The notes beneath the pieces were generated by a model that ran no database searches, was not told the origin of the DNA, and was given only the letters and a program-made list of their open reading frames with translations. A DNA stretch of 64,000 bases from Pseudorhizobium tarimense (GTDB lineage: Bacteria > Pseudomonadota > Alphaproteobacteria > Rhizobiales > Rhizobiaceae). Position 1 is the stretch's first letter. Each line of letters begins with the position of its first letter. Positions 30,927-49,022 of this stretch are shown piece by piece. The stretch is from NCBI RefSeq assembly GCF_022968135.1, contig NZ_JALJRA010000019.1:1-64000 (forward strand), written 5' to 3'. A program made the translations under genes and the position numbers.

Positions 30927-32063
30927 TCACTTGACGAAGAGCTGGCGCGGGAAATTGGTCAGCTTTTCGTAGCCGGTTCCGGTGATGGTTATCGTCTCCG
31001 ACATGCCGAAGCCGCGGGCGAGCACATAGGTATGGAAGGTCTGCCCGGGCTCGAAGGTCCAGCTGCTGCCGGCGGCGGCTTCTAGCGGCTCACCGCCGTT
31101 CGGTTGCAGCAGCAGGCCGACCGAATAGAAGGTCTTGTTGGTATAGGTTTCGCGTAGACCGGCGGAAAGAACGCCGTTGCGGTAGATGGCGTCGGGTACG
31201 CTGGCCGAGACACCGGGTTTCACCTCGCGCATCGCCATATCTTGGATGGCGATTAACTGCTCCACGACCTTGTAGTCGTCGTCCTGTACGGGTCCGACCC
31301 TGATAGGGCGCATGAAGCGGGCGTGGTAATGCTTGACGTTCGGGGTCGTCTCGATCTGGATAATGTCGCCTGCCTCCAGCACGCGATCGGAATAACCACC
31401 ATGCAGATGGAAGGCGCGCTCACCGGAGGACATGACGCCGGGACCCGGCAGGTCGGAGCCGGCACGGATCATCGCGGCACACACTTCGGCTGCCATTTCG
31501 CGCTCGGTGACGCCGACGCCGGCCGAGTCGATCGCGGCCTGCATGCCAGCTTCCGCAGCTCTTGCGGCGCGACGCTGATAGGCGATTTCGGCGGGTGACT
31601 TGATGAGGCGCATCTGCGGCGTCATCAGGCTCTCGTCCTGCCAGACGATGCCGGGGAGAGCGGATTTCAGGTATTCGTAGCGACCGGCCGACAGTGGCCA
31701 GGCGGAGAGCTCGATGCCGAGTCTGGCCGTCTTGCCGATGCGACTTTCGATGGCTCCGGCTGCCACCGCCATGCGGTCGTCGCTATCCGTCCACATCACC
31801 CGGTCGGAAAAGACGCAGGTGCTGTCGAGATAATATTCCTCGACGTCGCGGCAGAACATGGTCGGTTCGCCCTCGGCCGGGATGATGGCGAATTGCAGCG
31901 TGCCGTAGGCGCGGGTGAAATAGCCGGTCAGCCAGGTGACGGTTTCCGGCAGGAAGGCGACGAGGCCGTCGAGCTGCTTCCTCTTCAGTTCGGCCTGCAC
32001 GCGGGACAGGCGGGAGAGAAATTCTTCGCGTTCGAACCAGTAGGCAGGCGTTACCATCGTCAT
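30927..32063 (-). CDS. M24-fold hydrolase without metal ligands (creatinase/ectoine-hydrolase-like)
   Basis: A 378-residue pita-bread-fold protein. The N-terminal creatinase domain (about 1-150: RLSRVQAELKRKQLDGLVAF, then WLTGYFT) is followed by the M24 domain (about 160-378: RLIKSPAEIAYQRRAARAAEAG). The usual aminopeptidase-P pair of Asp ligands is absent: the region reads IIQIETTPNVKHYHARF, with Glu and His instead. It may thus be a metal-free C-N hydrolase like creatinase (inference). It follows the amidotransferase gene by 36 bp on the same strand. It is the most distant of three M24 paralogues in this island. Confidence 0.8.
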   Translation of the reverse strand: MTMVTPAYWFEREEFLSRLSRVQAELKRKQLDGLVAFLPETVTWLTGYFTRAYGTLQFAIIPAEGEPTMFCRDVEEYYLDSTCVFSDRVMWTDSDDRMAVAAGAIESRIGKTARLGIELSAWPLSAGRYEYLKSALPGIVWQDESLMTPQMRLIKSPAEIAYQRRAARAAEAGMQAAIDSAGVGVTEREMAAEVCAAMIRAGSDLPGPGVMSSGERAFHLHGGYSDRVLEAGDIIQIETTPNVKHYHARFMRPIRVGPVQDDDYKVVEQLIAIQDMAMREVKPGVSASVPDAIYRNGVLSAGLRETYTNKTFYSVGLLLQPNGGEPLEAAAGSSWTFEPGQTFHTYVLARGFGMSETITITGTGYEKLTNFPRQLFVK

Positions 32064-32099
32064 TCCTCGATCGGGTATTCTTGAAGCGGGTCCTTGGGA

Positions 32100-32801
32100 T
32101 CAGGCGTTCTGGACGAGTTCGGCAAAGCGGGTCAGCATGGTCTTTGCTTCGGAAGCTTCATGGGCCCGCGCCTTCAGGTCGTCGATATCGGCGCCGTCCT
32201 TTTCCATCCGCTCGCGGTTCTCCTCGAACCAGACGACAGCCTGGGCTTTGGTGACTTCCGGGTGGCCCTGAATGCCCCAGATATCCTTGTCCTTGTAGCG
32301 CCAGACCTGGTTCGGGCAGTCGTCGGAATAGGCGAGGACCGTCATGTCCGGATGGTCGGCCTTCACCTCGTCATTGTGCCAGACGAACATGTAGGCGTTG
32401 TCGACGATGTCGCGGCAGAGCTTGTCGGTCTTGGCCGCTTCCGTGAGCGGCAGGTCCTTGTAACCGATCTCGCAATACGAGCGGCGGAACACCTGGTCGC
32501 GACCGCACAGAGCCGAGCCGAGGATCTGGCTGCCGAAGCAGATGCCGAGCATCGGAATTTCCATCTCAGCCGCTTCGCGGATCAGATCGTGCTCGCGCAG
32601 GATGAAGGGCACGTCCTCGTAAGCGCCGTGCGGGCTGCCGGAGAAAAAGATGCCGTCATAACCGTTGAGCGAGGAGGGGAACTGGCCGTCATAGGCCCAG
32701 TAGCGATCGACCTGCAAGCCCCAGTTCTCGAACCGATCATCCAGTTTGGCAACCGACTGAAACTTGCGCCCGTTGCCGAGATAAAGAAGGCGTCCCGCCA
32801 T
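32100..32801 (-). CDS. Class-I glutamine amidotransferase-like protein
   Basis: A 233-residue GMP-synthase-like GATase-1 domain with the full triad: Cys 88 in GICFGSQ, His 180 and Glu 182 in GIQGHPEV. It stands alone, with no synthetase domain, so it is probably a gamma-glutamyl hydrolase or amide-processing enzyme, as in PuuD or YfeJ-type proteins. The ATG at 32801 has GGGGAATGAC upstream; the frame extends to 32912 but would run over a regulatory palindrome. First gene of a two-gene unit with the M24 hydrolase, divergent from pxpA. Confidence 0.82.
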   Translation of the reverse strand: MAGRLLYLGNGRKFQSVAKLDDRFENWGLQVDRYWAYDGQFPSSLNGYDGIFFSGSPHGAYEDVPFILREHDLIREAAEMEIPMLGICFGSQILGSALCGRDQVFRRSYCEIGYKDLPLTEAAKTDKLCRDIVDNAYMFVWHNDEVKADHPDMTVLAYSDDCPNQVWRYKDKDIWGIQGHPEVTKAQAVVWFEENRERMEKDGADIDDLKARAHEASEAKTMLTRFAELVQNA

Positions 32802-32833
32802 GTCATTCCCCGTTTTCGAAATCTGCGCACCAT

Positions 32834-32843
32834 TGGTATACCA
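32834..32843. promoter_or_regulatory. TGGTATACCA palindrome between amidotransferase and pxpA
   Basis: A perfect 10-bp palindrome 33 bp upstream of the amidotransferase start and 88 bp upstream of pxpA. The identical palindrome is at 38476-38485. The shape fits FCD-type GntR operators, so the regulator at 37710 probably binds both (inference). Confidence 0.6.
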
Positions 32844-32930
32844 GCGGTCTTTAAGCTGCAATCGGGAATTCGTGGCATTCTGCGGCGGGTCTGCTATGCA
32901 TCTGTCCGACATGCCGACAAGGGATCAAAC

Positions 32931-33695
32931 ATGCGCGTCGACCTCAATTCGGATCTCGGTGAAGGTTATGGCCCGTGGACGATGGGCGATGATGCCGCGA
33001 TGCTCGATATCGTCAGCACGGCCAATATCGCCTGCGGCTTCCATGCCGGCGATCCCGACATCATGCGTGCCACCGTCCGGCTGGCGAAGGAGCGCGGCGT
33101 CGCCTTCGGCGCCCACCCCGGCTACAACGATCTGATCGGTTTCGGCCGCCGGCGCGTGCCGGGTTTGAGCCTTGCAGAGATCGAATCGCTGGTCGCCTAT
33201 CAGGTGGGGGCGATGGCGGCGATCGCGGCACTGGAAGGCCATCCGATGACCCATGTAAAGACGCATGGCGCGCTCGGCAATGTCTCGGCGGATGACGATG
33301 CGACGGCGCTGGCCGTCGGCCGCGCAATCAAGGCCGTCGATCCGAAACTCGCCTTCATGGTGATGCCGGGTACGGCCACCGCGCGGGCTGCAGAGAAACT
33401 TGGCCTGACGCCGATCAACGAAATCTACGCCGACCGCACCTATGCCGACAGTTTCAACCTGTCGCCGCGCTCCGAACCCGGTTCGGTAATCCATGATCCG
33501 GACCTGCTCGTCGAACGCGTCATCTCCATGGTGTGGGAAGGATGCCTGACATCGACATCCGGCAAGCGGTTGGAAGTGCCGATCGGGTCGATCTGCGTAC
33601 ATGGCGATACGCCCGGCGCCGTCGCAATGGCGCGGCAGCTTCGTGCGGCCCTGGAAAAGGCCGGCTGGACGATCGGCTCGTCGGTGCATCCATAA
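32931..33695 (+). CDS. pxpA: 5-oxoprolinase subunit A (LamB/YcsF family)
   Basis: A 254-residue cytosolic subunit of the PxpABC complex that converts 5-oxoproline to glutamate with ATP. Family motifs are DLNSDLGEGYGPW at the start, NIACGFHAGDP, GAHPGYNDLIGFGRR, HVKTHGALGN and the C-terminal ICVHGDTPGAVAMA. The ATG at 32931 gives the canonical MRVDLNSDLGE start; the frame upstream to 32094 is an antisense shadow of the amidotransferase. It faces pxpC/pxpB convergently, which is unusual because the three genes are often together on one strand. Confidence 0.92.
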   Translation: MRVDLNSDLGEGYGPWTMGDDAAMLDIVSTANIACGFHAGDPDIMRATVRLAKERGVAFGAHPGYNDLIGFGRRRVPGLSLAEIESLVAYQVGAMAAIAALEGHPMTHVKTHGALGNVSADDDATALAVGRAIKAVDPKLAFMVMPGTATARAAEKLGLTPINEIYADRTYADSFNLSPRSEPGSVIHDPDLLVERVISMVWEGCLTSTSGKRLEVPIGSICVHGDTPGAVAMARQLRAALEKAGWTIGSSVHP

Positions 33696-33732
33696 GCGGG
33701 GAAGGCGCGATTGAGGTCGGACATTGTAGCGG

Positions 33733-34674
33733 TCAGCGCGTCTTGCGTAGGTCGCCAATCACGGCGGCAAGTCGCTGCTGGCTTCCAAGGAAAAGCTCCT
33801 CCGCCATGTCCGCTGAGATGGACCGGAACATAAAGCGGCTGCCGGCCGGCATCTGGGCAAGGCGCGTCAGGTCGGACGAGGTTACCGTCGCGATCTTCGG
33901 ATACCCGCCCGTCGTCTGGCCGTCGGCCGTGAGCACAATCAGCTTACCCGATCCTGGCACCTGGATTGAGCCGAGGACGGTTGCATCGGAGACGATGTCG
34001 TGACCCTTGAAGGCTTCCGTCTTGGGGCCGTCGAGCACCATAGCCATTCGGTCGCGCGACTGGGTGACGGTAAACGGCTTAGTCAGGAAGGCACGCCAGG
34101 CGTTCTCGTCGAAGTAATCGTCCTGTGGTCCGGGCACGATCTGGATCGGGCCGGATCGGCGCAGATACGGTGTGCCGAGCATGCGGGGCGAAAGGTCGGT
34201 CGGGGCGCCGATCGGCAGGGTATCGCCGGCCGCAAGCGCCCCGCCGTCCAGACCGCCGACGCCGGTTCTGAGATGGGTGGACCTGCTGCCGAGCACCGGC
34301 GCGATGGTTATGCCGCCGGAAATCGCGATGTAGCCCCATACCGAGCCCTGCATTTCGCCGACCGACAGAGTCTCTCCGACTCCGAGGACATGGCTTTCCC
34401 AAGTGGTTACCGGCTTGCCGTCGATCTCGACCGTACAAGCGCCGCCGGTAATGGCGACGAGAACATCCCGGTCTGCGGAAAAGCTGCCGCCCATCAGGGC
34501 AAATTCGATCGCGGCGGCTTCAGGATCGTTGCCGACCAATGCATTGCCGATGGCATGTGCGCCGCGGTCGACGGCGCCGGAGGTCGAGACGCCGCGGGAG
34601 CGATAGGCGTAGCGGCCGCCGTCCTGCACGGTCATCAGCGGGCCATGCTTGAGAATGGTAAGGAGAGCGGTCAT
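33733..34674 (-). CDS. pxpC: 5-oxoprolinase subunit C (biotin-dependent carboxylase/KipA family)
   Basis: A 313-residue protein of the AHS2/KipA family. It has the opening LTILKHGPLMTVQDGGRYAYRSRGVSTSGAVD, GNALVGNDPEAAAIEFALMGG and the C-terminal GGYPKIATVTSSDLTRLAQMPAG. It works with PxpB as the ATP-using kinase/hydrolase half of 5-oxoprolinase. Its start overlaps the pxpB stop by 4 bp (34671-34674), so B and C are translationally coupled, B first. Confidence 0.9.
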   Translation of the reverse strand: MTALLTILKHGPLMTVQDGGRYAYRSRGVSTSGAVDRGAHAIGNALVGNDPEAAAIEFALMGGSFSADRDVLVAITGGACTVEIDGKPVTTWESHVLGVGETLSVGEMQGSVWGYIAISGGITIAPVLGSRSTHLRTGVGGLDGGALAAGDTLPIGAPTDLSPRMLGTPYLRRSGPIQIVPGPQDDYFDENAWRAFLTKPFTVTQSRDRMAMVLDGPKTEAFKGHDIVSDATVLGSIQVPGSGKLIVLTADGQTTGGYPKIATVTSSDLTRLAQMPAGSRFMFRSISADMAEELFLGSQQRLAAVIGDLRKTR

Positions 34675-35420
34675 TCGGCGATCTCCTTTACTGCGGCAGT
34701 TCCGGCCGTAACCTTTGCGTCCAGTTCCTTTGCCTCATCGGCATCGATGCCGCGGAAACGGATTCTGTCGCCGGCCTTCACGAGGAAGGGTTCCGGCCGG
34801 GCGGCGTCGAACAGCCTGAACGGCGTGCGGCCGAGAAAGCGCCAGCCGCTCGGGCCGGGAACGGAATTGATGCTCGACTGCCGCCCGCCGATCCCGATCG
34901 CGCCGGCCTCGATCCGCTGACGCGGCACGGCAAGCCGCGGCGTATGCAGGATCTCCGGCAGGCCGCCGAGATAGGCGAAGCCGGGCGCGAAGCCGATCAT
35001 GTAGACGCGGTATTCGGCAGAAGCATGCATGGCGATAACTTCGGCCACGCTCATATTCTTCATCTTCGCCAGTTCATCGAGATCGGCCTGATGCTCGCCG
35101 CCGTAGAAGACCGGAAATTCCAGCAGCCGGCCTTTATGCCCAACGGCTCCGCCACGCGTCGCGAGCTGCATCAGTTCGTCGCCGAGGGCTGCGCCACGGA
35201 TCTTGCGCGGATCGTAGATCACCGTCAGCGAGCGATAGGTCGGGATGGTTTCGAGAACGCCGTCGACCGGCTCCGCGGCAAGCGAGGCATCGAGCGACAG
35301 GACTTCGAGGTTCGCCGTCTCGGTTATCGCATCGGAAAACTCAATGCCGATGGCGCGGTCGCCGCAGCGCAGGATACGGGGATAGGAAATCTCTTTGCCG
35401 GGCTGAGGCATGTGGGGCAT
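34671..35420 (-). CDS. pxpB: 5-oxoprolinase subunit B (KipI/AHS1 family)
   Basis: A 249-residue AHS1/KipI-family protein with YRSLTVIYDPRKIRGAAL, the conserved YMIGFAPGFAYLGGLPE and IGGRQSSINSVPGPSGWRFLGRTPFRLFD. Together with PxpC and the pxpA product it should form ATP-dependent 5-oxoprolinase. The ATG at 35420 is preferred; the frame also has GTG 35423 and ATG 35411, and none has a strong ribosome site. It lies 20 bp downstream of the D-2-hydroxyacid dehydrogenase gene, in the long minus-strand unit headed by gntR. Confidence 0.9.
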   Translation of the reverse strand: MPHMPQPGKEISYPRILRCGDRAIGIEFSDAITETANLEVLSLDASLAAEPVDGVLETIPTYRSLTVIYDPRKIRGAALGDELMQLATRGGAVGHKGRLLEFPVFYGGEHQADLDELAKMKNMSVAEVIAMHASAEYRVYMIGFAPGFAYLGGLPEILHTPRLAVPRQRIEAGAIGIGGRQSSINSVPGPSGWRFLGRTPFRLFDAARPEPFLVKAGDRIRFRGIDADEAKELDAKVTAGTAAVKEIAE

Positions 35421-35443
35421 CACTTCAATTTACCAAGTCGCGA

Positions 35444-36397
35444 TCAGGGCCCGGCTCCCGGAACTCGGCCGATGGCCTTGAGTTCGGCCAGCACCTTGCC
35501 GGCGATCTGAAGGCCGGTCTTCTCCAGTGCCTCATTCGTCGAGCCGCCGATGTGGGGAGTTAGCACAAGGTTCGGGCAGTCGAGTAGGGGATGGCCGGAA
35601 ATAATCGGCTCGACCGTCAGCACGTCAAGGCCGGCGCCGGCGATCATGCCATCCCTCAATGCCGTCGCAAGGGCATCTTCGTCGATCAGCGCGCCGCGGG
35701 CGGTGTTGATCAGAATGCCATTCGCTCCGATCAGGGCCAGCCGGCGAGCATCGATTACGGGTGTTGCCTGCGGAATGCCATGCAGAGAGACGATATCCGC
35801 CCATGCGCAGAGGCTGTCGAGATCGGGCGAGAAAAGGATGCCCTGCTCCGCCAGTTCCTCGGCCGGCGTGAAGCGGGAGACCGTAGCGACCTCCATACCG
35901 AAGGCCCTGGCGATGCCGGCGACCAGTTTCGCGATATGGCCGTAGCCAACCAGCCCGAGCCGCCGGCCGGAAAGTTCGAAGGTCCGGTGCTTCTGGCTGA
36001 ACAGATGATCGCCGCTGCGGGAAGCCTGATCGGCGGCAACCAGCGAGCGGGCGCAGGTCAGCATGAGGCCGATGGCAAGTTCGGCCACCGACTGGGCATT
36101 GGCGCCCGGCGTGTTGGCGAGAGGAATGTCGCGCGCGGCGAGCGATGCCTTGTGCACCTTGTCCGTACCGGTGCCATGCACGCCGACCATCCTGAGATCG
36201 GGCGCGGCCGCAATTTCCTCCTCGGAGAGGCCGTGATTGCGGGTGATCACCGCTCGGGCCGTGGCGAGATACGGCTCGAGGTGGGCAAAGGCGGTGGACG
36301 CGGCGACATGAACGACGAGCCCCGCATCTTCCAGCAGGCGGACCGCGCTTTGCGCGATCGGCTGGACGATCAGGCAGTCGCAACGAGGCGCGTCCAT
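35444..36397 (-). CDS. D-2-hydroxyacid dehydrogenase (PGDH-like)
   Basis: A 317-residue NAD-dependent enzyme of the 2-hydroxyacid dehydrogenase family. It shows the NAD motif GLVGYGHIAKLVAGIARAFG, the Arg motif NTARGALIDEDAL, Glu in GLDVLTVEP and the catalytic His in LTPHIGGST. Length is normal for a short PGDH/hydroxypyruvate reductase-type enzyme. It starts 2 bp after the M20 amidohydrolase stop (ATG 36397). It may reduce or oxidise a 2-oxo/2-hydroxy acid released by the pathway's hydrolases. The substrate is unknown. Confidence 0.85.
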   Translation of the reverse strand: MDAPRCDCLIVQPIAQSAVRLLEDAGLVVHVAASTAFAHLEPYLATARAVITRNHGLSEEEIAAAPDLRMVGVHGTGTDKVHKASLAARDIPLANTPGANAQSVAELAIGLMLTCARSLVAADQASRSGDHLFSQKHRTFELSGRRLGLVGYGHIAKLVAGIARAFGMEVATVSRFTPAEELAEQGILFSPDLDSLCAWADIVSLHGIPQATPVIDARRLALIGANGILINTARGALIDEDALATALRDGMIAGAGLDVLTVEPIISGHPLLDCPNLVLTPHIGGSTNEALEKTGLQIAGKVLAELKAIGRVPGAGP

Positions 36398-36399
36398 GG

Positions 36400-37713
36400 T
36401 CAGGCCTTCAAAGGCGGATCGAGGCACAGCGCCGAGACGAGGCGTGCGGCCTCGGCAAAGTCCGCGATATCCATGTGTTCGTCGGGATTATGGCTGCCAT
36501 TGGCATTGCGGATGAAGACCATGCCGGTCGGCACGCCGGCATCGGCGAATACCGCCGCATCATGGCCGGCGCCGCAGGCCATGGTCTCGGTCTCGATGCC
36601 CTGTTCCCTGGCGAAGTCCGACAGCGCCGTGACGATCGAGTCATCCATCTTCGCCGACTTGCTGTCGGTCAGGCGGCCGAGTTCGAATTTGACGCGGTGC
36701 TCGGCCTCGATGCGGGCGACGGTTTCGATCACGATCGCCTGCATGCGGGCCAGCGTCTGCGGCTCCTGGCTGCGGACATCCAGCGAGAAGCTGAGCTTGC
36801 CGGCGATCTTGCTGAAGGCGGCTTCGGAGGGATCGGTGGAGAACTGGCCGAAGGTGACGACGAGGTCGGCACCCTCCGCCTGCAGTCTGTCCCATGCCTT
36901 GTCGAGTTTAGTCACGAGTGCCGAGGCCGCGCGCACCGCGTCGCTGCGATATTCGCGCGGCGTGGCGCCGGAATGGGCATAGACGCCGATGCATTTCGCC
37001 TCGCGGTAGCGGAACGATCCGCGGATGCCGGTGACGATGCCGACCGGAATTTGTCTTTCGAGGAGAACCGGGCCCTGTTCGATATGCGGTTCGATGAACA
37101 TCGCTATATCGGCCGGGTCGAGATAGGATTTGCCGGAGCGGAGGAATTCCGTATCGCCGCCGGCGGCATCGATGGCGGCGCCAAGCGAGATTTGATCGGA
37201 GGATCGCTTGACCTGATCGAGTTCCTTGCCCGTCAGGCGCCCGAGCGCCGCGCGGCTGCCGACATAAGAGGCGCCGAACCAGGTGCTTTCCTCGGCGCGA
37301 ACCGCCATCACGGTGATGTCGCGCGGCGGGCGGATGCCGGCGCGGACATAACCGGAGACAACCGACAGGCCGATGAGCACGCCGGCAGCGCCGTCGAAAT
37401 TGCCGCCCATCGGCACGGAGTCGAGATGCGATCCGATGAAAATGCCGGGGCGCTTCTCGCGTCCCTTCATCCTCATGTAGAGATTGCAGCCCGGATCGGT
37501 CTTCACTTCGAGCCCGAGCTTGCGAGCCTCGCGACGCACCATGTCATGGGCGATCTGTTCACCGAGGCCATAGGAGGTGCGGGTGATGCCGCGGTTGGTT
37601 CCCGTGCGTCGCTTCAGCTCGTCGAAAAGACGTTCGGCCAGCTGGATATCCACCGGGGCCGAATCGCTGGTCGCGGACTGATCCATCCCGGCGCTTTCTG
37701 CCAAACCTGTCAT
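36400..37713 (-). CDS. M20-type amidohydrolase (N-carbamoyl-amino-acid/allantoate hydrolase family)
   Basis: A 437-residue binuclear metal amidase. Metal motifs are intact: GSHLDSVPMGGNFDGAAG (His, Asp), AVRAEES (Glu), FIEPHIEQGP (His) and GAGHDAAVFA near the C-terminus, with the lid-domain motif AHSGATP. The family hydrolyses N-carbamoyl amino acids, beta-ureidopropionate, allantoate or ureidoglycine. The ATG at 37713 overlaps the GntR stop by 4 bp; the frame extends further upstream without support. A role in opening a carbamoyl or amide intermediate fits the neighbouring 5-oxoprolinase genes (inference). Confidence 0.85.
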   Translation of the reverse strand: MTGLAESAGMDQSATSDSAPVDIQLAERLFDELKRRTGTNRGITRTSYGLGEQIAHDMVRREARKLGLEVKTDPGCNLYMRMKGREKRPGIFIGSHLDSVPMGGNFDGAAGVLIGLSVVSGYVRAGIRPPRDITVMAVRAEESTWFGASYVGSRAALGRLTGKELDQVKRSSDQISLGAAIDAAGGDTEFLRSGKSYLDPADIAMFIEPHIEQGPVLLERQIPVGIVTGIRGSFRYREAKCIGVYAHSGATPREYRSDAVRAASALVTKLDKAWDRLQAEGADLVVTFGQFSTDPSEAAFSKIAGKLSFSLDVRSQEPQTLARMQAIVIETVARIEAEHRVKFELGRLTDSKSAKMDDSIVTALSDFAREQGIETETMACGAGHDAAVFADAGVPTGMVFIRNANGSHNPDEHMDIADFAEAARLVSALCLDPPLKA

Positions 37714-38369
37714 GCGCGGGTCAGTCTCCCGATAATACTGTCTCTGACGTGGTCGAGGTGGAGGCGCATGGCCTGGGCCGCGTCCTCGCCGCGCCCCTCG
37801 CGCAACGCGCCGACAATGTCGAGATGCTCGCGGCAAGTCGTTTCGAACCGTTCCGGCATGCTTCTCAGGTCGAAGATCTGCGTCTGGCGGCGCAGGGTGC
37901 GGATGATCTGACCCAGTTGCGGGTTGCCGGCCGCATCGCCAATGCCGCCATGGAGGCGATCATCGACGTCGCGGACCGAACCGCGATCAGGCTTGCCTTC
38001 GCCGTCTTCAGGATTGCCGAGAAGGCTTTTCAGGTCCGCCTCGAGTTCGTCGAGTGCAGCAGTCGGCATGCGGCCGGCCGCCAGGCGTGCCGCTTCCGGC
38101 TCGAGCAGCTGGCGGATCTGCAGGGCATCCATGTAATCCTCGATGCGCATCTGCTTGACCTGTAGGCCACGGCTGCCCTGGCGGATCAGAAGGCCTTCGC
38201 CTTCAAGCATCAGGAGCGCATCGCGGATCGGCGTGCGCGACATGTTCAGCGTGTCGGCCAGGCGGCGCTCGGTCACCATTGCGCCCGGTTGCGCTGCACC
38301 GGAAAGGATCAGGTTCAATATCTGTTCGTAGGCCTGCAGCGCCAGCCGCTTATCGGTTTCAACCAGCAT
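37710..38369 (-). CDS. GntR-family (FCD) regulator of the amide-catabolism island
   Basis: A 219-residue repressor-type protein. A winged helix at about 8-75 (TERRLADTLNMSRTPIRDALLMLEGEGLL in parts) is followed by an FCD domain (LEPEAARLAAGRM to HLDHVRDSI). The FCD core looks slightly degenerate around residues 120-150, where RFH-type ligand residues would be expected (VDDRLHGGIGDAAGN). It heads the minus-strand operon gntR-M20-dehydrogenase-pxpBC and is divergent from the M24 and peptide-transport genes. The TGGTATACCA site at 38476 in the shared intergenic region is a likely target. Confidence 0.85.
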   Translation of the reverse strand: MLVETDKRLALQAYEQILNLILSGAAQPGAMVTERRLADTLNMSRTPIRDALLMLEGEGLLIRQGSRGLQVKQMRIEDYMDALQIRQLLEPEAARLAAGRMPTAALDELEADLKSLLGNPEDGEGKPDRGSVRDVDDRLHGGIGDAAGNPQLGQIIRTLRRQTQIFDLRSMPERFETTCREHLDIVGALREGRGEDAAQAMRLHLDHVRDSIIGRLTRA

Positions 38370-38475
38370 AAGTATCCTGTCCCTCCCGTGCGGAGACGGC
38401 TTCTAATAATTGTCTGGTGTCACACGCGATGCAGTTGTCACCAATCGGAATTTTTGTATTCCGCTGGTTGACGAG

Positions 38476-38485
38476 TGGTATACCA
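38476..38485. promoter_or_regulatory. TGGTATACCA palindrome between gntR and the M24/ABC operon
   Basis: A perfect 10-bp palindrome, identical to the one at 32834-32843. It lies in the 171-bp divergent region, about 106 bp upstream of the gntR start and 55 bp upstream of the M24 start. The position suits repression in both directions. Confidence 0.65.
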
Positions 38486-38540
38486 AAACGTAGTGTCATG
38501 CAACATCGAGCTTTGACGATCTTGTCGAAAGGCCCTTCGC

Positions 38541-41353: not shown

Positions 41354-42304
41354 ATGAGCTGGGGCTATCTTATCCGCCGCTTGCTGGCCGTTTTTATGGT
41401 GCTGGCGATCGTAACCTTCGCCGTGTTCGCAATCACGACGATGCTGCCGGGCAATGCAGCGATCATGATCCTGGGAGAATATGCCACCCCGGACGCGGTC
41501 GCGGCACTCGAAAAGCAGCTGCATCTGGATCAGTCCTGGTACATGCAATATTACAGCTGGGTCTCCGGTATTCTACATGGCGACTTCGGCACTTCGCTCC
41601 GCCTTTCCTTGCCGGTGACCCAGGTTGTCGGCGAGGCCTTCGCAAACTCTGCCCTGCTGGCGGCGACGGCCCTGGTCGTCGTCACCATCACGGCCATTCC
41701 GCTCGGTGCACTGGCCGCAATCAAGCGCGGCACGGCCATGGACCTTGGTCTCGGCCTGTTCAGCTATCTCGGCACGGCGCTGCCGGAATTTGTGACGGCG
41801 ACCCTGCTTCTGGTGTTCTTTGCGGCCCCGCAGCAGGGTATTTTCCCGGCAGGCGGCTTCGTCGCGCCGTGGGAAAGCCTCGCCGGTTTCGGCGCGCATG
41901 TGGTGCTTCCAGCCGCAACGCTCGGCCTTGTCCTGATGGCCCACATTTCCCGCCAGGTGCGGTCGGAAATGTCGGAAGTGCTGCATTCCGACTATATCCG
42001 CGCGGCACGGCTGAAGGGGTTGACCGAAAAGCGGGTCATCCGCCGGCATGCGTTGCCTAACTCGCTGGCACCTGCCGTTGCTGTCATCTCGCTCGATATC
42101 GGATATCTGCTCGGCGGCATCATCGTCGTCGAGGAGATCTTTGCCTGGCCGGGCCTTGGTCGCCTTCTGATCTACGCACTCGAAAACCGCGACCTTCCCG
42201 TCATCCAGGCCGTGACCCTGCTTCTCGCGACGGTCTATGCCCTGTCCAATCTCCTGTCGGACATCGTCATCGCTTTGCTCGATCCGAGGGTTCGCTATGC
42301 GTAA
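41354..42304 (+). CDS. Peptide-type ABC permease 1 (DppB-like)
   Basis: A 316-residue inner-membrane permease with six predicted helices. It has a DppB-style N-terminus (LIRRLLAVFMVLAIVTFAVF), the GNAAIMILGEYATPDAVAALEKQLHLDQ loop in parts, and the cytoplasmic coupling motif YIRAARLKGLTEKRVIRRHALPN. It starts 4 bp after the binding-protein stop and overlaps the second permease by 8 bp, so the transporter genes form one tight operon. Confidence 0.9.
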   Translation: MSWGYLIRRLLAVFMVLAIVTFAVFAITTMLPGNAAIMILGEYATPDAVAALEKQLHLDQSWYMQYYSWVSGILHGDFGTSLRLSLPVTQVVGEAFANSALLAATALVVVTITAIPLGALAAIKRGTAMDLGLGLFSYLGTALPEFVTATLLLVFFAAPQQGIFPAGGFVAPWESLAGFGAHVVLPAATLGLVLMAHISRQVRSEMSEVLHSDYIRAARLKGLTEKRVIRRHALPNSLAPAVAVISLDIGYLLGGIIVVEEIFAWPGLGRLLIYALENRDLPVIQAVTLLLATVYALSNLLSDIVIALLDPRVRYA

Positions 42305-43118
42305 TTTCTTCTCCACCCCCACCGCCATAGTCGGCACGGCGCTTCTTTCGGTCGTCTGCTTCGCGGCGATCTTCGGACCTTGGATCGCACCTTATGATCC
42401 GCAGGCCTTCGATCCGCTGAACCGCCTTCAGGGACCGTCGCCTGCGCATTGGTTCGGAACCGATCAGTTCGGCCGCGACCTCCTGTCCCGCATCCTGAAC
42501 GGCGCGCCTTCGACCGTCACTTTCGGCGTCGGCGCAACACTGATTGGCGTCGGTATCGGCTCGATAATTGGCGTCGTCGCCGGCGTTTCCGGCGGGTGGG
42601 CCGATTCCACCATCATGCGCATCCTCGACGGGTTGCTGGCCGTGCCTGACCTGCTGTTCACGCTGCTGATCGTCACCATCTTCGGCGGCGGCATGGAACA
42701 TGCCATGCTCGCCGTCGCCATTGCCTTTGCTCCCGGCATGGCCCGTATTGCGCGCAGCGCCGTTCTTTCGGTGCGCACCCGCGACTATGTGCGGGCGGCT
42801 GTCGCCCGCGGCGAATCCGGCTTCTATATCGTCGGCGCGGAAGTGCTGCCCAATGCGCTGAGCCCGATCGTCGTCGAAGCGACCATCCGCGTCTCCTTCG
42901 CCATCATGATCGGTGCGACGCTCGGCTTCCTCGGCCTCGGCGCCCAGCCGCCGAGCACGGAATGGGGCCTGATGGTGGCGGAAGCCCGCCAGTTCATGTT
43001 CCGCAATCCCTGGTGCGTCGCTGTTCCCGGTCTGTCGATCGCCATCGCCGCCCTCGGCTTCAATCTTTTCGGCGACGCCCTGCGTGACAGCCTCGACCCC
43101 AAGAGGAGCCACGGATGA
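42297..43118 (+). CDS. Peptide-type ABC permease 2 (DppC-like)
   Basis: A 273-residue inner-membrane permease. The N-terminal OppC-like segment PWIAPYDPQAFDPLNRLQGPSPAHWFGTDQFGRDLLSRI is recognisable in parts. Later come GVVAGVSGGWADSTIMRILDGLLAVP and the coupling motif YVRAAVARGESGFYIVGAEVLPN. The ATG at 42297 overlaps the end of permease 1. The stop overlaps the ATPase start (ATGA). It pairs with permease 1 to form the channel. Confidence 0.9.
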   Translation: MRNFFSTPTAIVGTALLSVVCFAAIFGPWIAPYDPQAFDPLNRLQGPSPAHWFGTDQFGRDLLSRILNGAPSTVTFGVGATLIGVGIGSIIGVVAGVSGGWADSTIMRILDGLLAVPDLLFTLLIVTIFGGGMEHAMLAVAIAFAPGMARIARSAVLSVRTRDYVRAAVARGESGFYIVGAEVLPNALSPIVVEATIRVSFAIMIGATLGFLGLGAQPPSTEWGLMVAEARQFMFRNPWCVAVPGLSIAIAALGFNLFGDALRDSLDPKRSHG

Positions 43119-44791
43119 CAGCGCAGACCTTGACCAAGGACGCTCCTATCGCCGCCGTCGAAAAGTCGGCCCTGTCGATCATTGACTATTCGCTGGCCTA
43201 CAAGACCGCCAACGGCCTTATTCCGGCCCTGCAGAACATCGACCTGACGATCCCGAAGGGCAAGACGGTCGGCCTCGTCGGCGAATCCGGTTCCGGCAAG
43301 TCGTCCATGGCCTGGTCGATCATGCGCTATCTGCCGTCGAATGCGGTCGAGACGGGTGGCGCCATTCGCCTCGCCGGCGAAGAACTCCTCGACTACACGC
43401 CGTATCAGATGATGGACATCCGCGGCCGCCGCATGTCGATGGTCTTCCAGGACCCTTCGACCTCGCTCAATCCGACGATCAAGCTCGGCGAGCAAATAGC
43501 CGAAGTGCTGATGCGCCATCGCGGCCTCACCAAGGCGCAGGCCTGGGCGGAGGCAGAAGCCGCACTTGGCCGCACCGGCATCACACGCCCGAAGGAAATG
43601 CTGCAGCGGTTTCCGCATGAGGCATCCGGCGGCGAAAAGCAGCGTGTGGTCATCGCCACCGCCTTTGCCTGCGAGCCCGAGCTGATCATCTTCGACGAGC
43701 CGACCACGGCGCTCGATATCCTGACCGCCCGGCAGATCCTCGACCTGTTCAATCAGCTGCGCGAGGAGACCAATGTCTCGGCGCTCTACATCTCGCACGA
43801 TCTCGGACTGGTTTCTCGCGTCGTCGATCGGGTGTCGGTTATCCACAAGGGTATCATCGTCGAGAGCGGGTCGGTGCAGGAGGTGTTTCGTCGTCCGAAG
43901 GCCGATTATACGCGCCAGCTGATCGGCGCGGTGCCGGACCCGGATCGCTGGGTCGGCGTGGATGCGCCGGGCGAGCCGAAGACGCTGCTCCGAATCGACA
44001 AGGTCGGCGTGCGCTACGGTGCGCCGACGAAACTCCAGGCGATGTTCTGGCCGACGGATGCCGAGACAGTGGGCTTCTGGGGCGCGAAGGATATCAGCAT
44101 CGATGTCCGCAAGGGTGAACTGCTCGGCGTCGTCGGCGAAAGCGGCTCCGGCAAGTCGACCATCGCCAAGGTGCTGGCCGGCCTTCAGGATTTCGAAGGC
44201 AAGCTCGATTTCGACGGCAAGGCGATCACGTCACGCAACGCGATCGACCGTGCCTATCGCCGCCGTGTCCAGATCGTCTTCCAGCATCCCGATGCCTCGC
44301 TCAATCCGCGCCACAGGATCGGCACGATCATCGCCCGGCCGCTGAAGCTCTACGGCATCGTGCCGAAGCATGAGATCAAGGCGCGCGTCGCCGAACTTCT
44401 GGAAATGGTGCGCCTGCCGGCAAGCTATGCCGACCGCCTGCCGCACCAGCTGTCCGGCGGCGAGAAGCAGCGCGTCGCGATCGCCCGCGCCTTTGCCGCC
44501 GAGCCGGAACTGGTCATCTGCGACGAGGTGACGGCCGCACTCGACGTCTCGGTGCAGGCGGCGGTCGCCGAGCTGCTGGTCAAACTGCAGAGAAATACGG
44601 GGGCGGCCTGCGTCTTCATCACCCACGACCTCAATCTGATCCGGCAGCTCGCCCACCGCATCGCGGTCATGCATCACGGCAAGCTGGTCGACTTCTTCGA
44701 CCGCGTCGATGCGCGCTCGGTGGACCGCGATCCCTATGCCAAGGCGTTGCTCGATGCCGTCCCGGTCCATGCCGGCGAGCCCGAAGCCTGA
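43115..44791 (+). CDS. Peptide-type ABC transporter, fused double ATPase (DppD-DppF)
   Basis: A 558-residue protein with two complete nucleotide-binding domains. Domain 1 has Walker A GESGSGKSS, signature ASGGEKQRV and Walker B IIFDEPTTALD. Domain 2 has GESGSGKST, LSGGEKQRV and VICDEVTAALD. In the second Walker B the usual Pro after Glu is Val. The fused form is common in alphaproteobacterial peptide importers. The 4-bp overlap with permease 2 ties it to the operon. It powers the importer from the cytoplasmic side. Confidence 0.92.
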   Translation: MTAQTLTKDAPIAAVEKSALSIIDYSLAYKTANGLIPALQNIDLTIPKGKTVGLVGESGSGKSSMAWSIMRYLPSNAVETGGAIRLAGEELLDYTPYQMMDIRGRRMSMVFQDPSTSLNPTIKLGEQIAEVLMRHRGLTKAQAWAEAEAALGRTGITRPKEMLQRFPHEASGGEKQRVVIATAFACEPELIIFDEPTTALDILTARQILDLFNQLREETNVSALYISHDLGLVSRVVDRVSVIHKGIIVESGSVQEVFRRPKADYTRQLIGAVPDPDRWVGVDAPGEPKTLLRIDKVGVRYGAPTKLQAMFWPTDAETVGFWGAKDISIDVRKGELLGVVGESGSGKSTIAKVLAGLQDFEGKLDFDGKAITSRNAIDRAYRRRVQIVFQHPDASLNPRHRIGTIIARPLKLYGIVPKHEIKARVAELLEMVRLPASYADRLPHQLSGGEKQRVAIARAFAAEPELVICDEVTAALDVSVQAAVAELLVKLQRNTGAACVFITHDLNLIRQLAHRIAVMHHGKLVDFFDRVDARSVDRDPYAKALLDAVPVHAGEPEA

Positions 44792-44801
44792 GGAACATCC
44801 T

Positions 44802-46022
44802 ATGACGAGTGTAACGGAACTGGTCGGCAAGGTGGATGAAAAGGCCTGCCTGGATATCCTCGCCGACATGGTGCGCCACAAGAGCTACTCGGAAACGCCC
44901 GGCGAGCGTGTGCTGGCCGAGCATATGGCGAATGTGATGCGGGGCATGGGGCTTGAGGTCGAGCTCCAGCCGGTCGTCGGCGAGCGGGTCAACGCGATCG
45001 GCATTTGGCGCGGCACGGGCGGCGGCAAAAGCGTGCTGTTCAACGGCCACCTCGACACCAATCCGGCGACCGAGGGTTGGACCGTCGATCCGTGGGGCAG
45101 CGTGGTGGACGACGAGTTCATCTACGGCATCGGCGTTTCTAACATGAAGGCCGGCGATGCCTCGTCGCTGTGCGCCGTCAAGACGCTGATCGACAACGGC
45201 ATCCGCCTCAAGGGCGATGTCATCCTGACTTATGTCATCGGCGAGCTGCAGGGCGGCATTGGTACACTGCAGGCGGTGCGCGCCGGCACGCGGGCCGACT
45301 ACTTCATCAATTCGGAACCGACCGATCTGCAGGCGATCACCATGCATGCGGCGGCCTTCACCTTCATCATCGAGCTGGAAGGCGTCACCCGGCATCTGTC
45401 CAAGCGCGAGGCTGCCGTCGATGCAATCCGCGCCGCCTGCGAGCTGATCCCCGAACTCGGCGACATGACTTTTTCCGACGCGCCAACCGCGGAGCACCGG
45501 TCGGTCAACCGCGTCCATGTCGGCGTCATGCATGGTGCGCTCGGACGCGACCTGCATGAATGGCGCCCGCCGCAGGTGGCCGATTTCGTCCGCCTCAAAG
45601 GCTCCGGCCGCTATGGACCGGGCCAGACGCGCGAAAATGCGCTGGCCGACATCCAGAAGGTGCTGGATGGGCTTTGTGAACGCCATCCCGGCATGAAGGC
45701 GAAGGTTTTTGCCGAGACGCGCAATGACCAGCCCACCATGCCGGCCTTCGCCGTCGACAAGGATGCCAGGATCGTTAAGTCGATCAACGCGGCTTACGAG
45801 GCCGTGCGCGGTGAAAAGCAGCCGACCGGCGCCATCGCGCCGCCGGCCTTCTTCGGTACCGATGCCGGGCATCTCTGGGCCGAGGGCGGCATGGAGGGCA
45901 TCGTCTGCGGCCCCGGCGGTCGTTACAACACCATGCCGGATGAGCGGGTCGATATCGTCGATTATCTCGACATGATCCGCATCTATCTGATCACTATGAC
46001 CGATATCTGCGAGATCGCATGA
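44802..46022 (+). CDS. M20-family (ArgE/DapE) deacylase-like protein with altered metal site
   Basis: A 406-residue cytosolic M20 protein. The first metal His-Asp pair is kept (NGHLDTNP, His 83, Asp 85). The bridging Asp of the family's SDMKGG motif is Asn 114 here (GVSNMKAGD), and the general base pair reads GELQGG rather than EExGG. The dimerisation/lid domain covers about residues 180-300, and a metal-ligand-like His occurs in GTDAGHLWAEGG. It could be mono-zinc, altered in reaction, or weakly active. The ATG at 44802 has GAGGA 7 nt upstream. The stop overlaps the next M24 gene by 4 bp. Confidence 0.8.
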   Translation: MTSVTELVGKVDEKACLDILADMVRHKSYSETPGERVLAEHMANVMRGMGLEVELQPVVGERVNAIGIWRGTGGGKSVLFNGHLDTNPATEGWTVDPWGSVVDDEFIYGIGVSNMKAGDASSLCAVKTLIDNGIRLKGDVILTYVIGELQGGIGTLQAVRAGTRADYFINSEPTDLQAITMHAAAFTFIIELEGVTRHLSKREAAVDAIRAACELIPELGDMTFSDAPTAEHRSVNRVHVGVMHGALGRDLHEWRPPQVADFVRLKGSGRYGPGQTRENALADIQKVLDGLCERHPGMKAKVFAETRNDQPTMPAFAVDKDARIVKSINAAYEAVRGEKQPTGAIAPPAFFGTDAGHLWAEGGMEGIVCGPGGRYNTMPDERVDIVDYLDMIRIYLITMTDICEIA

Positions 46023-47236
46023 CCCTTTACGTCCCCCAGGAATTTTCCGCCCGCACCCGCGGCGGCCGCGACGTTCTACTGAAATTCGAAGCAGCCGAGT
46101 TTGCCGGCCGGCTGGCCGCCACCCGCCGCCGCATGCGCGAACGGGGTCTCGATGCCTTGATCGTCTTCGCCCAGGAAAGCCACTATTGGCTGACGAGCTA
46201 CGACACCGCCGGCTACGTCTTCTTCCAGGCAGGCCTCGTGCTCGCGGACGATGGCAGTGATACCGTGCTGCTGACCCGCACGCCGGACCTGAGGCAAGCG
46301 AACGTCGCCTCGCTTTATGAGGAGGTTCGCGTCTGGCTAAACTCCGAGGATGCCAACCCTGCCAACGACCTGCGGGCCATCATGGCGGAGAAGGGCCTCG
46401 CCGGTAAAAAGGTCGGCGTCGAATATGCGACCTATGGCCTGACCGGCGCAAATGCCCGCATTGTCGACACGGCGTTGGACGGCTTCTGCGCCACCGAGGA
46501 TGCCTCCGACATCGTGCGCACCGGCCGGCTGGTAAAATCCGCCGCCGAGCTGCAGCATGTGCGGATGGCCGGCAAGCTTGCAGACGCTGCGGTGCGCGCG
46601 GCGATCGATGTGACCAAGCCCGGCATCCCGGACACCGTTCTTTCCGGTGCTGCGCTCACTTCGATGCTGGCCGGAGGCGGCGATATTCCCTCCGGCGGCC
46701 CGCTGGTCAATTCCGGCCCGCGCGCGCTCTACGGCCGCGGCATCGGCGGCCCGAGGCTGATCGAGGAGCAGGACCAGATCCTGCTCGAGCTCGCCGGCTC
46801 CCATTGTCGCTACCACGTCGTGATCGAGCATACGCTGGTGACCGGCAAGCCGGACCCGCGCCAGCTCTCCATGCTCTCCGTCGCCAAGGAAGCGCTCGAT
46901 CGGATCAAGGATGCCGCGAGGGCAGGGGCAGCACTTGGTACGTTGGACGATATCCACCGGAAGGTGCTCGACAACGCCGGCTTCGCCAAGGCGCGCTATG
47001 CAGCCTGCGGCTATGCGCTGGGTTGCACCTTCAAGCCAACCTGGATGGAAGTGCCGCCGATGATCTATTCCGGCAATCCCTTGATCATCACGCCGGGCAT
47101 GGTGTTCTTCGTCCACATCATGATCCCTGACGCCGAGACTGGACTGACCGCCGGCGTCGGCCAGACATTCGCGATCACCGAGAGCGGCGCTCCGGAAGTC
47201 TTCAGCGACCTTCCGGTCGAACTCTACTGCTGCTAA
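46019..47236 (+). CDS. M24-fold hydrolase without metal ligands, copy B
   Basis: A 405-residue paralogue of the 38541 product. Shared blocks include FAQESHYWLTSYDTAGYVFFQ, RVWLNSEDANPANDL, LVNSGPRALYGRG and EEQDQI. The ligand region reads ILLELAGSHCRYHVVIEHT, so again Glu and His replace the Asp pair, and PPMIYSGNPLIITPGMVFF replaces the C-terminal metal region. It overlaps the M20 gene stop by 4 bp. Two similar M24 enzymes in one operon suggest two related substrates, or a heteromeric enzyme (inference). Confidence 0.8.
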   Translation: MTLYVPQEFSARTRGGRDVLLKFEAAEFAGRLAATRRRMRERGLDALIVFAQESHYWLTSYDTAGYVFFQAGLVLADDGSDTVLLTRTPDLRQANVASLYEEVRVWLNSEDANPANDLRAIMAEKGLAGKKVGVEYATYGLTGANARIVDTALDGFCATEDASDIVRTGRLVKSAAELQHVRMAGKLADAAVRAAIDVTKPGIPDTVLSGAALTSMLAGGGDIPSGGPLVNSGPRALYGRGIGGPRLIEEQDQILLELAGSHCRYHVVIEHTLVTGKPDPRQLSMLSVAKEALDRIKDAARAGAALGTLDDIHRKVLDNAGFAKARYAACGYALGCTFKPTWMEVPPMIYSGNPLIITPGMVFFVHIMIPDAETGLTAGVGQTFAITESGAPEVFSDLPVELYCC

Positions 47237-47255
47237 ACTTAGAGGGCATGCCCCC

Positions 47256-48041
47256 ATGGATCTGAAACTGAACGGCAAGACGGCGCTGGTGTTCGGCGCC
47301 GGCGGTGGCTTGGGCGGAGCGATCGCCCGCTCGATGGCGGCTGAAGGCGCCAATGTCGTGGCCGCAGACATCGACGAGGTCGCGGCCTGCAAGACCGCCG
47401 ATGCCATTTCCGAAGTTGGCCAGAGCGCCGTCGCTCTGCAATGGGATATCGGCGATCTTTCCGTACTGGAAGCCCGGCTGGCGAAGGTTGCCTCGGTCTT
47501 CGGCCCGGCAGACATCCTCGTCAACAACACCGGCGGCCCGCCGCCGACGCCGGCCGTAGGGCAATCGGCAGAAACCTGGTCGAAGTATTTCGACAGCATG
47601 GTGCGCTCGGTGATCGCGGTGACCGATGCCGTACTGCCCGGCATGCGCGAGCGCGGCTGGGGCCGCGTCATCACCTCGACCTCGTCGGGTGTCGTCGCCC
47701 CCATCGCCAACCTCAGCATTTCCAACAGCCTGCGCATGGCGCTGGTCGGCTGGTCGAAAACGCTTGCTCGCGAAGTGGGACGTGACGGTATCACTACCAA
47801 TATCGTGTTGCCGGGCCGCATCGCCACCGGACGCATCCTGTTCCTCGACGAGCAGAAGGCCAAGCGCGAGAACCGCAGCGGCGAGGAGGTGTCTGCCGAT
47901 AGCACCGCTTCGATCCCGGTCGGACGATATGGCGAACCGCAGGAATATGGCGATATGGTCACCTTCCTCGCAAGCCCGCGCGCATCCTACATCACCGGCT
48001 CGGTCATCCGCATCGATGGCGGCCTGATCGCCAGCATCTGA
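47256..48041 (+). CDS. SDR-family oxidoreductase
   Basis: A 261-residue short-chain dehydrogenase. Cofactor motif VFGAGGGLGGAIARSMA (about 12-28), NNTGGPPP where NNAG is usual, and IDGGLIAS at the C-terminus. The catalytic region is atypical: STSSGVVAPIANLSISNSLRMALVGWSKTLA carries Asn where the Tyr of YxxxK is expected, with no Lys four residues on. This is the 3-oxoacyl-ACP-reductase-like 'SGVVxPIPNLxxSN' subgroup seen in other catabolic loci. It sits in the operon between M24 copy B and the DapA-like gene. Confidence 0.82.
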   Translation: MDLKLNGKTALVFGAGGGLGGAIARSMAAEGANVVAADIDEVAACKTADAISEVGQSAVALQWDIGDLSVLEARLAKVASVFGPADILVNNTGGPPPTPAVGQSAETWSKYFDSMVRSVIAVTDAVLPGMRERGWGRVITSTSSGVVAPIANLSISNSLRMALVGWSKTLAREVGRDGITTNIVLPGRIATGRILFLDEQKAKRENRSGEEVSADSTASIPVGRYGEPQEYGDMVTFLASPRASYITGSVIRIDGGLIASI

Positions 48042-48095
48042 ACGACAAGACCACCCGGCACACTGCCGGGAGAATTTTGCCCAGGAGGGGAAACC

Positions 48096-49022
48096 ATGAC
48101 TTTCTCGACACAATCGAAAGGCGTCTACGCCATTGCCGCCACCCCGTTCCACGACGACGGCACGATCGATTTCACCTCAGTCGACAAACTGACAGATTTC
48201 TACCAGGAGAGCGGCTGCACCGGCATCACCATCCTCGGCATCATGGGCGAGGCGCCGAAGCTGGAGCCGGATGAAAGCCGGGCGATCATCAAGCGGGTGG
48301 TCGAACGCGCAAAAGTGCCGGTCATCGTCGGCATCTCAGCTCCCGGCTTCGCCGCCATGCGCTCGCTTGCGAAAAGCTCGATGGACATGGGTGCTGCCGG
48401 CGTCATGGTCGCACCGACCCCTGCGCTCAGGACCGACGACCAGATCGTCAATTACTTCGCCAGCGCCGTCGAGGCGATCGGTGACGACGTGCCCTGGGTC
48501 TTGCAGGACTATCCGCTGACGCTCAACGTCGTCATCTCGCCGGGCGTGATCGCCAAAATCATCAGCGACCACCCGTCCTGCCTGATGCTAAAGCATGAGG
48601 ACTGGCCGGGTCTCGAAAAGATCTCGAAGCTCCGCGCCATGCAGAAGTCTGGCGAGCTTCGTGAGTTCTCGATCCTCTGCGGCAATGGCGGCATGTTCCT
48701 TGACTTTGAACCGGAGCGTGGCGCAGACGGCGCGATGACCGGCTACGGCTTCCCGGACATGCTGACCGAGCTCGTCAACCTTTCCGCAGCCGGCAAGCGC
48801 GACGAGGCGCACGACCTCTTCGATTCGCATCTGCCGCTGATCCGATATGAACAGCAGCTCGGTGTCGGCCTGGCCGTGCGCAAGCACGTGCTGAAACGCC
48901 GCGGCGTCATTGCCTCGGACGCCCAGCGCAAGCCGGCGCAGATGCCGACGCAGACAGCGCGCGCCGAGGTCGATTACCTACTGGAGCGTCTGGCAAAGCA
49001 CGACAAGCGCGCCGCCATCTGA
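48096..49022 (+). CDS. DapA-family lyase/aldolase
   Basis: A 308-residue TIM-barrel class-I aldolase/dehydratase. The substrate carboxylate loop is ILGIMGEAPKL (GTTGE in DapA), the catalytic Tyr is in VLQDYPLTLNV (about residue 135) and the Schiff-base Lys in LMLKHEDWPG (about 167). GSHxP and GGxCx features of true DapA are absent, so lysine biosynthesis is unlikely. It probably cleaves or dehydrates a 2-oxo acid made in the pathway. A strong CAGGAGGGG ribosome site precedes ATG 48096. Last gene of the operon, followed by a terminator hairpin. Confidence 0.85.
   Translation: MTFSTQSKGVYAIAATPFHDDGTIDFTSVDKLTDFYQESGCTGITILGIMGEAPKLEPDESRAIIKRVVERAKVPVIVGISAPGFAAMRSLAKSSMDMGAAGVMVAPTPALRTDDQIVNYFASAVEAIGDDVPWVLQDYPLTLNVVISPGVIAKIISDHPSCLMLKHEDWPGLEKISKLRAMQKSGELREFSILCGNGGMFLDFEPERGADGAMTGYGFPDMLTELVNLSAAGKRDEAHDLFDSHLPLIRYEQQLGVGLAVRKHVLKRRGVIASDAQRKPAQMPTQTARAEVDYLLERLAKHDKRAAI

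Follow-up and report, generated by a model that had tools for sequence, protein, structure and literature searches.

What compound does an island of amidase-like genes with its own importer and regulator act on, and do these genes form one functional unit at all? The question is raised by positions 30927-49022 of a 64,000-nucleotide stretch of Pseudorhizobium tarimense DNA (assembly GCF_022968135.1, contig NZ_JALJRA010000019.1, positions 1 to 64,000; hereafter the window), where 17 genes occupy about 18 kb and were assigned to families by hidden Markov model (HMM) scans. A sequence-only reading of the same DNA had drawn exactly these borders, which are confirmed, and had named three M24 and two M20 proteins, a class-I glutamine amidotransferase (GATase), PxpABC, dehydrogenases, a DapA-like lyase, a full Dpp-type transporter and a GntR regulator, all of which the HMM scans recover; its overall interpretation is partly supported. 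Our comparison establishes that the island is a real unit, a mosaic and probably co-regulated catabolic cluster. We give a probability of roughly 0.55 to the proposal that it would constitute a single catabolic regulon under GntR/FCD control, serving to degrade a small nitrogen-rich molecule that is imported and that contains several C-N bonds of amide or amidine type.

The gene layout is as follows. On the minus strand gntR is followed by M20car, the 2-hydroxyacid dehydrogenase gene (HADH), pxpB and pxpC, and to its right the plus strand carries, in this order, M24b, the solute-binding protein (SBP), DppB, DppC, DppDF, M20, M24c, a short-chain dehydrogenase/reductase (SDR) and DapA. In the left part pxpA stands alone on the plus strand, and GATase precedes M24a on the minus strand.

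30927..32063, minus strand: M24a, DoeA/creatinase-like M24 protein, 378 aa (Pfam M24 and Creatinase_N)
32100..32801, minus strand: class-I GATase, probable gamma-glutamyl or amide hydrolase (PF00117)
32834..32843, no strand: operator-like palindrome TGGTATACCA in the GATase/pxpA divergent promoter
32931..33695, plus strand: pxpA, 5-oxoprolinase subunit A, second copy in the genome (NF003814, PF03746)
33733..34674, minus strand: pxpC, 5-oxoprolinase subunit C-like (PF02626; TIGR00724 over cut-off)
34671..35423, minus strand: pxpB, 5-oxoprolinase subunit B (PF02682; TIGR00370 over cut-off)
35444..36397, minus strand: HADH, similar to phosphoglycerate dehydrogenase (PF02826/PF00389)
36400..37713, minus strand: M20car, M20 hydantoinase/carbamoylase-family amidase (TIGR01879 over cut-off)
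37710..38369, minus strand: GntR-FCD regulator (PF00392 and PF07729)
38476..38485, no strand: operator-like palindrome TGGTATACCA in the gntR/M24b divergent promoter
38541..39719, plus strand: M24b, DoeA/creatinase-like (Creatinase_N and Peptidase_M24)
39799..41349, plus strand: SBP, family 5 (PF00496)
41354..42304, plus strand: DppB-type permease (HMM)
42297..43118, plus strand: DppC-type permease (HMM)
43115..44791, plus strand: fused DppD-DppF ATPase (two ABC_tran stretches)
44802..46022, plus strand: M20, ArgE/DapE-like hydrolase (PF01546)
46019..47236, plus strand: M24c, DoeA/creatinase-like (Creatinase_N and Peptidase_M24)
47256..48041, plus strand: SDR oxidoreductase (PF13561)
48096..49022, plus strand: DapA-family lyase (dihydrodipicolinate synthase family), relative of 3dz1 (PF00701)

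The minus-strand open reading frame (ORF) at 32925-33758, opposite pxpA, has no match in the HMM scans. There is a 4-bp overlap between gntR and M20car and likewise between pxpB and pxpC, which points to a coupling of their translation. The two divergent operons that had been proposed give way to four predicted transcription units, since pxpA lies inverted on the plus strand: M24b to DapA, gntR-M20car-HADH-pxpBC, pxpA, and GATase-M24a.

These units are connected by a palindrome that is common to the gntR/M24b intergenic regions of the related clusters described below. Within the window its exact form TGGTATACCA occurs at two sites only, starting at 32834 and 38476, and a search tolerating one mismatch gives 3 matches where 0.34 would be expected, a count of 3 being reached in 0 of 100 shuffles. 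The 4.86 Mb genome has three exact sites, two being the divergent promoters of the island, while the third (C1) falls inside a coding ORF of 905 aa and is taken as chance; a reversed control pattern occurs once per strand. We have also surveyed the core GGTATACC in the window and 31 further stretches, many of them from close relatives, so that the counts are not independent. The core precedes M24b in all 24 clusters holding gntR and M24b, and pxpA in 20 of the 22 loci with this gene, and 47 of 48 of its sites lie before cluster genes. The two pxpA exceptions are L101, where no site is seen around pxpA-GATase even with up to two mismatches, and L103, which has a site before HADH and GATase; in L102 a site precedes GATase. 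The palindrome fits the published FadR-subfamily consensus with its TKGT/ACMA boxes (PMC4494728). At the sequence level, the predicted regulated promoters hence carry the TKGT/ACMA palindrome expected for a regulon of a FadR/FCD-type GntR protein. The presence of the same palindrome in both divergent promoters leads us to predict that the four units are co-induced as a single regulon, to which the inverted pxpA and the GATase-M24a pair likely belong.

The neighbourhood comparison points in the same direction. After removal of duplicate genomes, gntR and M24b are found together in 24 loci, that is the window and 23 further ones, in the genus, family and order of the window. The holders are 12 same-genus loci beside the window (L181-L190, L192, L193), three of the same family (L100-L102), six of genus g177 from another family (L150, L152, L160, L161, L198, L154, the first five of these stretches being taken with left extensions), one of a third family (L153) and a Terrarubrum plasmid (L165). 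Two of the copies are plasmid-borne, the other being L193, plasmid pHM3 of Rhizobium sp. SSA_523. A partial copy, L191, was left out of the 24: it retains importer, M24c and DapA, and its stretch is devoid of M24b, gntR, M20car, GATase, M24a and pxp genes. In the 23 further loci M24b is 72-98% identical to that of the window and the other cluster genes are lower, down to 33-34% for PxpB and PxpC of L153. Besides gntR and M24b, M20car is present in 24/24 clusters; the importer and M24c are in 23/24 (missing from the L154 stretch), as are GATase and M24a (missing from the L165 stretch), and pxpA is in 21, pxpC in 17, HADH in 16 and M20 in 12 of the 24. The gene pxpB is seen in 16, with a seventeenth at 33% identity in L153, and DapA and SDR are in at least 19 and at least 11 clusters, minimum counts since some of the stretches stop close to the cluster; all gene absences apply to the stretches examined. 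In genome draws that include the window's own genome, M24c is found in 14 of 57 genomes of the genus (E <= 1e-120, >=86% identity) and M24b in 7 of 297 of the family (E <= 1e-100, 4 at >=72% identity) and 41 of 397 of the order (E <= 1e-85, 8 at >=72%); GATase occurs in 2 of 385 of the class (E <= 1e-50), and M24a in only one of 398 of the phylum, the own genome (E <= 1e-80).

Since the island recurs as a block in 23 further loci, it is not a chance assembly, and the earlier expectation that its genes would co-occur in other genomes is borne out; the idea of one co-regulated catabolic unit of amide and C-N hydrolases with its own importer is supported by neighbourhood data and palindrome. The flanks do not travel with the cluster: of 37 window flank ORFs with a length of 130 aa or more, selected on GC content at third codon positions (GC3), none is found in 21 stretches from 17 genomes or records, which extend only a few kb past the cluster, except for weak cross-matches of ATP-binding cassette (ABC) ATPases at 26-27% identity in 4 of the 21. 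The GC content is 63.2% in the island, with 58.8% and 58.5% in the flanks. Ratios of non-synonymous to synonymous substitutions (dN/dS) against L187, L184 and L189, computed for the genes that each of these loci has, all lie between 0.03 and 0.25 (M20car against L187 being omitted from the table as an ORF-picking artefact), which indicates purifying selection. Ortholog ORF picks are faulty in places, namely GATase fragments in L186, L160 and L153 and early starts in some GATase and two M24a sequences. The patchy spread, the GC content and the plasmid copies together suggest horizontal scattering, and as judged from these sequences the cluster genes form one heritable, horizontally scattered unit. 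Some genes next to the clusters are also worth recording. At 28746-30574 on the minus strand, directly adjoining the island, lies a toxin-antitoxin type pair of an AbiEii-like nucleotidyltransferase and an AbiEi-like gene; an ORF adjoining the cluster in G640 (L150, 13678-14715) reads by eye like a tyrosine recombinase; and the Terrarubrum cluster is adjoined (L165, 21364-27479) by AtzE, DUF4089, allophanate hydrolase, HpxZ and an isochorismatase-family hydrolase.

What the unit may do depends to a large extent on its three M24 proteins, all of which have the ectoine hydrolase DoeA as best solved relative (M24a against 6twk, E 1.9e-24; M24b, E 1.8e-32). M24b and M24c are 45% identical to each other and either is 24-26% identical to M24a. 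We have aligned 74 sequences (25 M24a, 24 M24b and 25 M24c), taking D209, D220, H280, E313 and E327 as the presumed metal-ligand numbering of prolidase. The position of DoeA Glu255, which we take to be the covalent nucleophile, corresponds to Glu238 of M24a and is Glu in 74/74 sequences, as is the D209 position; the H280 position is Tyr in 74/74 (Tyr313 in M24a), and DoeA/EutD (6twj, 6twk, 6yo9) likewise have this Glu, and Tyr for the metal-binding His. The D220 position is Arg in 25/25 M24a, Lys in 24/24 M24b and either Val (18/25) or Cys (7/25) in M24c; that of E313 is Glu in 29/74, mostly M24a (21/25), in a part where the alignment is uncertain, and that of E327 is Glu in M24a only (25/25). 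M24a retains up to two of the five ligands, and at least three of the five are changed in all three proteins. The five-ligand set D, D, H, E, E of a prolidase-type metallopeptidase is not present, and with these ligands changed any reading of the M24s as ordinary metallopeptidases is unsupported. The structure model of M24b (mean predicted local distance difference test score, pLDDT, 81.2) has EutD/DoeA as best fold match, at only 24-25% identity, and creatinase (1chm, 1kp0, 7yto), which hydrolyses a C-N bond, has the same fold (TMq 0.84-0.86) at 18-20% identity. These data point to DoeA/creatinase-type enzymes, so that three genes whose family carries the annotation Xaa-Pro peptidase probably do not encode peptidases.

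Neither of the known pathways of these relatives was retained. For ectoine, the three M24s miss the equivalog scores for DoeA/EutD (163, 160 and 189 against 575, and 116, 148 and 121 against 613 NCBIfam bits) and Pfam scans of the island proteins give no match to the partner deacetylase of AstE/AspA type (DoeB/EutE); for creatinine, the island scans give no creatininase or sarcosine oxidase match. Related M24 genes are found in other contexts: in L156 (10162-16330) a single gene separates an M24b-like gene (45%) from an OPLAH-type hydantoinase/oxoprolinase on the opposite strand, so that an unrelated enzyme of lactam opening again has a DoeA-like M24 in its vicinity, and in L157 and L167 an M24 homologue of 40-44%, an uncharacterised protein of a different M24 type, adjoins pgeF, annotated in Rhizobium leguminosarum and read from sequence in G459.

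The remaining enzymes are familiar by family and deviate in detail. The solved structure closest to GATase is gamma-glutamyl peptidase 1 (9k7i, E 1.7e-16), likewise a class-I GATase with Cys-His-Glu, the similarity being confined to about 160 residues and 64 bits; this triad is kept in 23/23 readable sequences (26 holders, 3 excluded as ORF-pick fragments). PxpA, PxpB and PxpC-type proteins are all present, as in known 5-oxoprolinase. PxpA scores 349.6 bits with NF003814 (cut-off 226) and falls below the narrower equivalog models tried, like the other genomic PxpA copy; PxpB scores 181.3 with TIGR00370 (cut-off 145.55). PxpC, with 224.5 bits, misses its equivalog cut-off of 500, a test which does not discriminate, as the second genomic set falls short of it too (181.4 bits), and the idea that the island PxpC is the more deviant copy was dropped, the other scoring lower on the same model. 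Differences from the known PxpABC system are the inverted pxpA behind its palindrome, the second genomic set and the absence from view in some clusters. HADH reaches 202 bits with TIGR01327, below the cut-off of 454. M20 has Asn instead of Asp in the GxxDMK motif in 12/12 sequences, where the aligned DapE and ArgE rows have Asp and 5-nitroanthranilate aminohydrolase likewise has Asn. DapA matches 3dz1 strongly and near full length (E 1.6e-137), a structure presumably from Rhodopseudomonas and named by family only (dihydrodipicolinate synthase), from which it differs in being joined to a cluster; the family Lys (Lys166) is kept in 21/21 sequences, and the family Tyr is Phe in 6/21.

Put together, these proteins could form the following route. 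The Dpp-type transporter would import the compound; M24b and M24c, perhaps paired, would open an amide, lactam or cyclic-amidine bond through covalent Glu catalysis; M20car, and M20 where present, would take off a carbamoyl or acyl group; GATase would release either a carboxamide or a gamma-glutamyl group, after which M24a would cut the remainder. The glutamyl part may pass to 5-oxoproline and on to glutamate via PxpABC, and the other part may be a 2-oxo or 2-hydroxy acid on which HADH, SDR and the DapA-family lyase would act. The flow through 5-oxoproline, proposed earlier, is favoured by the palindrome before pxpA but is not universal among the clusters. More tentatively, and with the balance somewhat against it, three metal-free DoeA/creatinase-type M24s in series, with M24b and M24c perhaps a heteromer, might convert a natural product found in soil and sea, either a cyclic amidine or a lactam, to 5-oxoproline and a 2-oxo acid in an undescribed pathway. 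A literature search aimed at the gene set, covering titles and abstract openings in open-licence PubMed Central only, found no cluster like this one, which is weak evidence in line with the earlier statement that no such pathway is described.

The comparison of loci also splits the island into GATase-M24a, with or without DapA, and M24b-importer-M24c-M20car, its variable parts being PxpABC, HADH, M20, SDR and DapA. DapA relatives number at least 562, and among the 80 best-matching loci the plus-strand operon is seen in L009, L011, L012, L013 and L015 and not in the other 75 stretches examined; outside the island these relatives often adjoin an SDR and an RraA-like ORF. Of seven island-free loci inspected, five have the RraA-like ORF (read from sequence) just before DapA, four of them with SDR as well. 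A set of SDR, RraA-like ORF and DapA is likewise seen in several Rhizobiales (L010, L026, L032, L041, at about 8500-10930). In genus g177 PxpA and DapA are only 49-52% and 52-53% identical to those of the window, against about 81% for M24a, which suggests separate recruitment of the same two functions; pxpA is still behind the palindrome there. Such a make-up could mean two pathways under one regulator for two compounds that co-occur in the environment, with GATase-M24a-DapA, which in other genomes has a different ABC importer, HADH and RraA for neighbours, acting on one of them and M24b, Dpp importer, M24c, M20car, HADH and PxpBC on the other. Indeed, the GATase-M24a module stands alone in two cases: Roseomonas p546-2, where GATase, SBP and M24a are accompanied by genes annotated as importer, HADH-like and RraA, and G993, with GATase, SBP_bac_8-type SBP, M24a and DapA. 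Terrarubrum has the M24b half and lacks both GATase and M24a. However, 22 of the 24 clusters combine M24b, M24c, GATase and M24a, most have GGTATACC in both promoters, and G628 joins M24b straight onto GATase-M24a without importer or M24c, so that we consider two pathways unlikely. Co-occurrence and shared palindrome favour the degradation of one compound, but as the two halves each occur apart this part of the earlier reading is only likely.

Other rival explanations start from single families. In respect to the importer, the best solved relatives of the SBP are AgaA (6hlx, 2.7e-50) and, nearly tied, YliB (1uqw, 7.3e-49), presumably a synonym of GsiB. AgaA is linked to agropinic acid and lactam opening, and the rhizobial hosts and plasmid-borne copies would suit the catabolism of a lactam opine of this kind, PxpABC opening the pyroglutamyl lactam and dehydrogenases and lyase taking the sugar-derived part; with YliB an almost equal match, three DoeA-like M24s and a carbamoylase-family protein left without a role, and the cluster held also outside the family of the window, this is highly improbable. 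Scavenging of gamma-glutamyl peptides or glutathione conjugates, with Gsi/Dpp-like import, GATase as gamma-glutamyl peptidase, M24 and M20 peptidases and PxpABC for the 5-oxoproline, agrees with the closest relative of GATase, with GsiB as top NCBIfam match of the SBP and with the presence of gamma-glutamyltranspeptidase genes close to the cluster in G628 and to an M24 homologue in G552. It is quite doubtful, as the M24 metal ligands are changed, the SBP reaches 198.3 bits against the GsiB cut-off of 594, and neither the carbamoylase-family protein nor the DapA lyase would be needed; the glutathione pathway proper was rejected on the missed GsiB score and that of GsiA (429.5 bits, cut-off 1077). 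Similarly low is our estimate for hydantoin or ureide breakdown, in which PxpABC or an M24 would open a cyclic ureide and M20car hydrolyse the N-carbamoyl amino acid. M20car is over the hydantoinase/carbamoylase cut-off (TIGR01879, 262.2 bits against 204), matches the N-carbamoyl-L-amino acid hydrolase 3n5f (E 3.2e-43) and keeps the metal-ligand motifs in 25/25 sequences; an OPLAH-type hydantoinase/oxoprolinase lies near an M24b-like gene in G398, and allophanate hydrolase and AtzE adjoin the Terrarubrum cluster. Yet an Asn of 3n5f shortly before a conserved Arg, which we take to be part of the N-carbamoylase substrate site, is Ser in 25/25 M20car, and GATase and M24a are left unexplained.

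A number of further observations, in addition to the free-standing modules, weigh against a single regulon for one compound. The loci with the GATase-M24a module only, L164 and L172, have no palindrome (in L172 the contig stops immediately before GATase). PxpA is not seen in 3, PxpC in 7, HADH in 8 and M20 in 12 of the 24 clusters, which implies that no single full route is conserved; moreover, the 24 are not independent, 13 coming from one genus and 6 from another. The genome has a second 5-oxoprolinase set elsewhere, with PxpA, fused PxpBC and a biotin-carboxylase-like gene (the latter read from sequence), and the SBP matches do not discriminate opine from peptide binders. Prolidases too match the M24b model well, so that the fold alone leaves a peptidase possible and it is the residues that decide. 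The order of steps given above is a guess. With these points counted in our estimate for the single regulon, the island provides, through its own importer, regulator and operator-like palindrome, a defined handle on what would be new C-N hydrolase chemistry and on the compound it serves.

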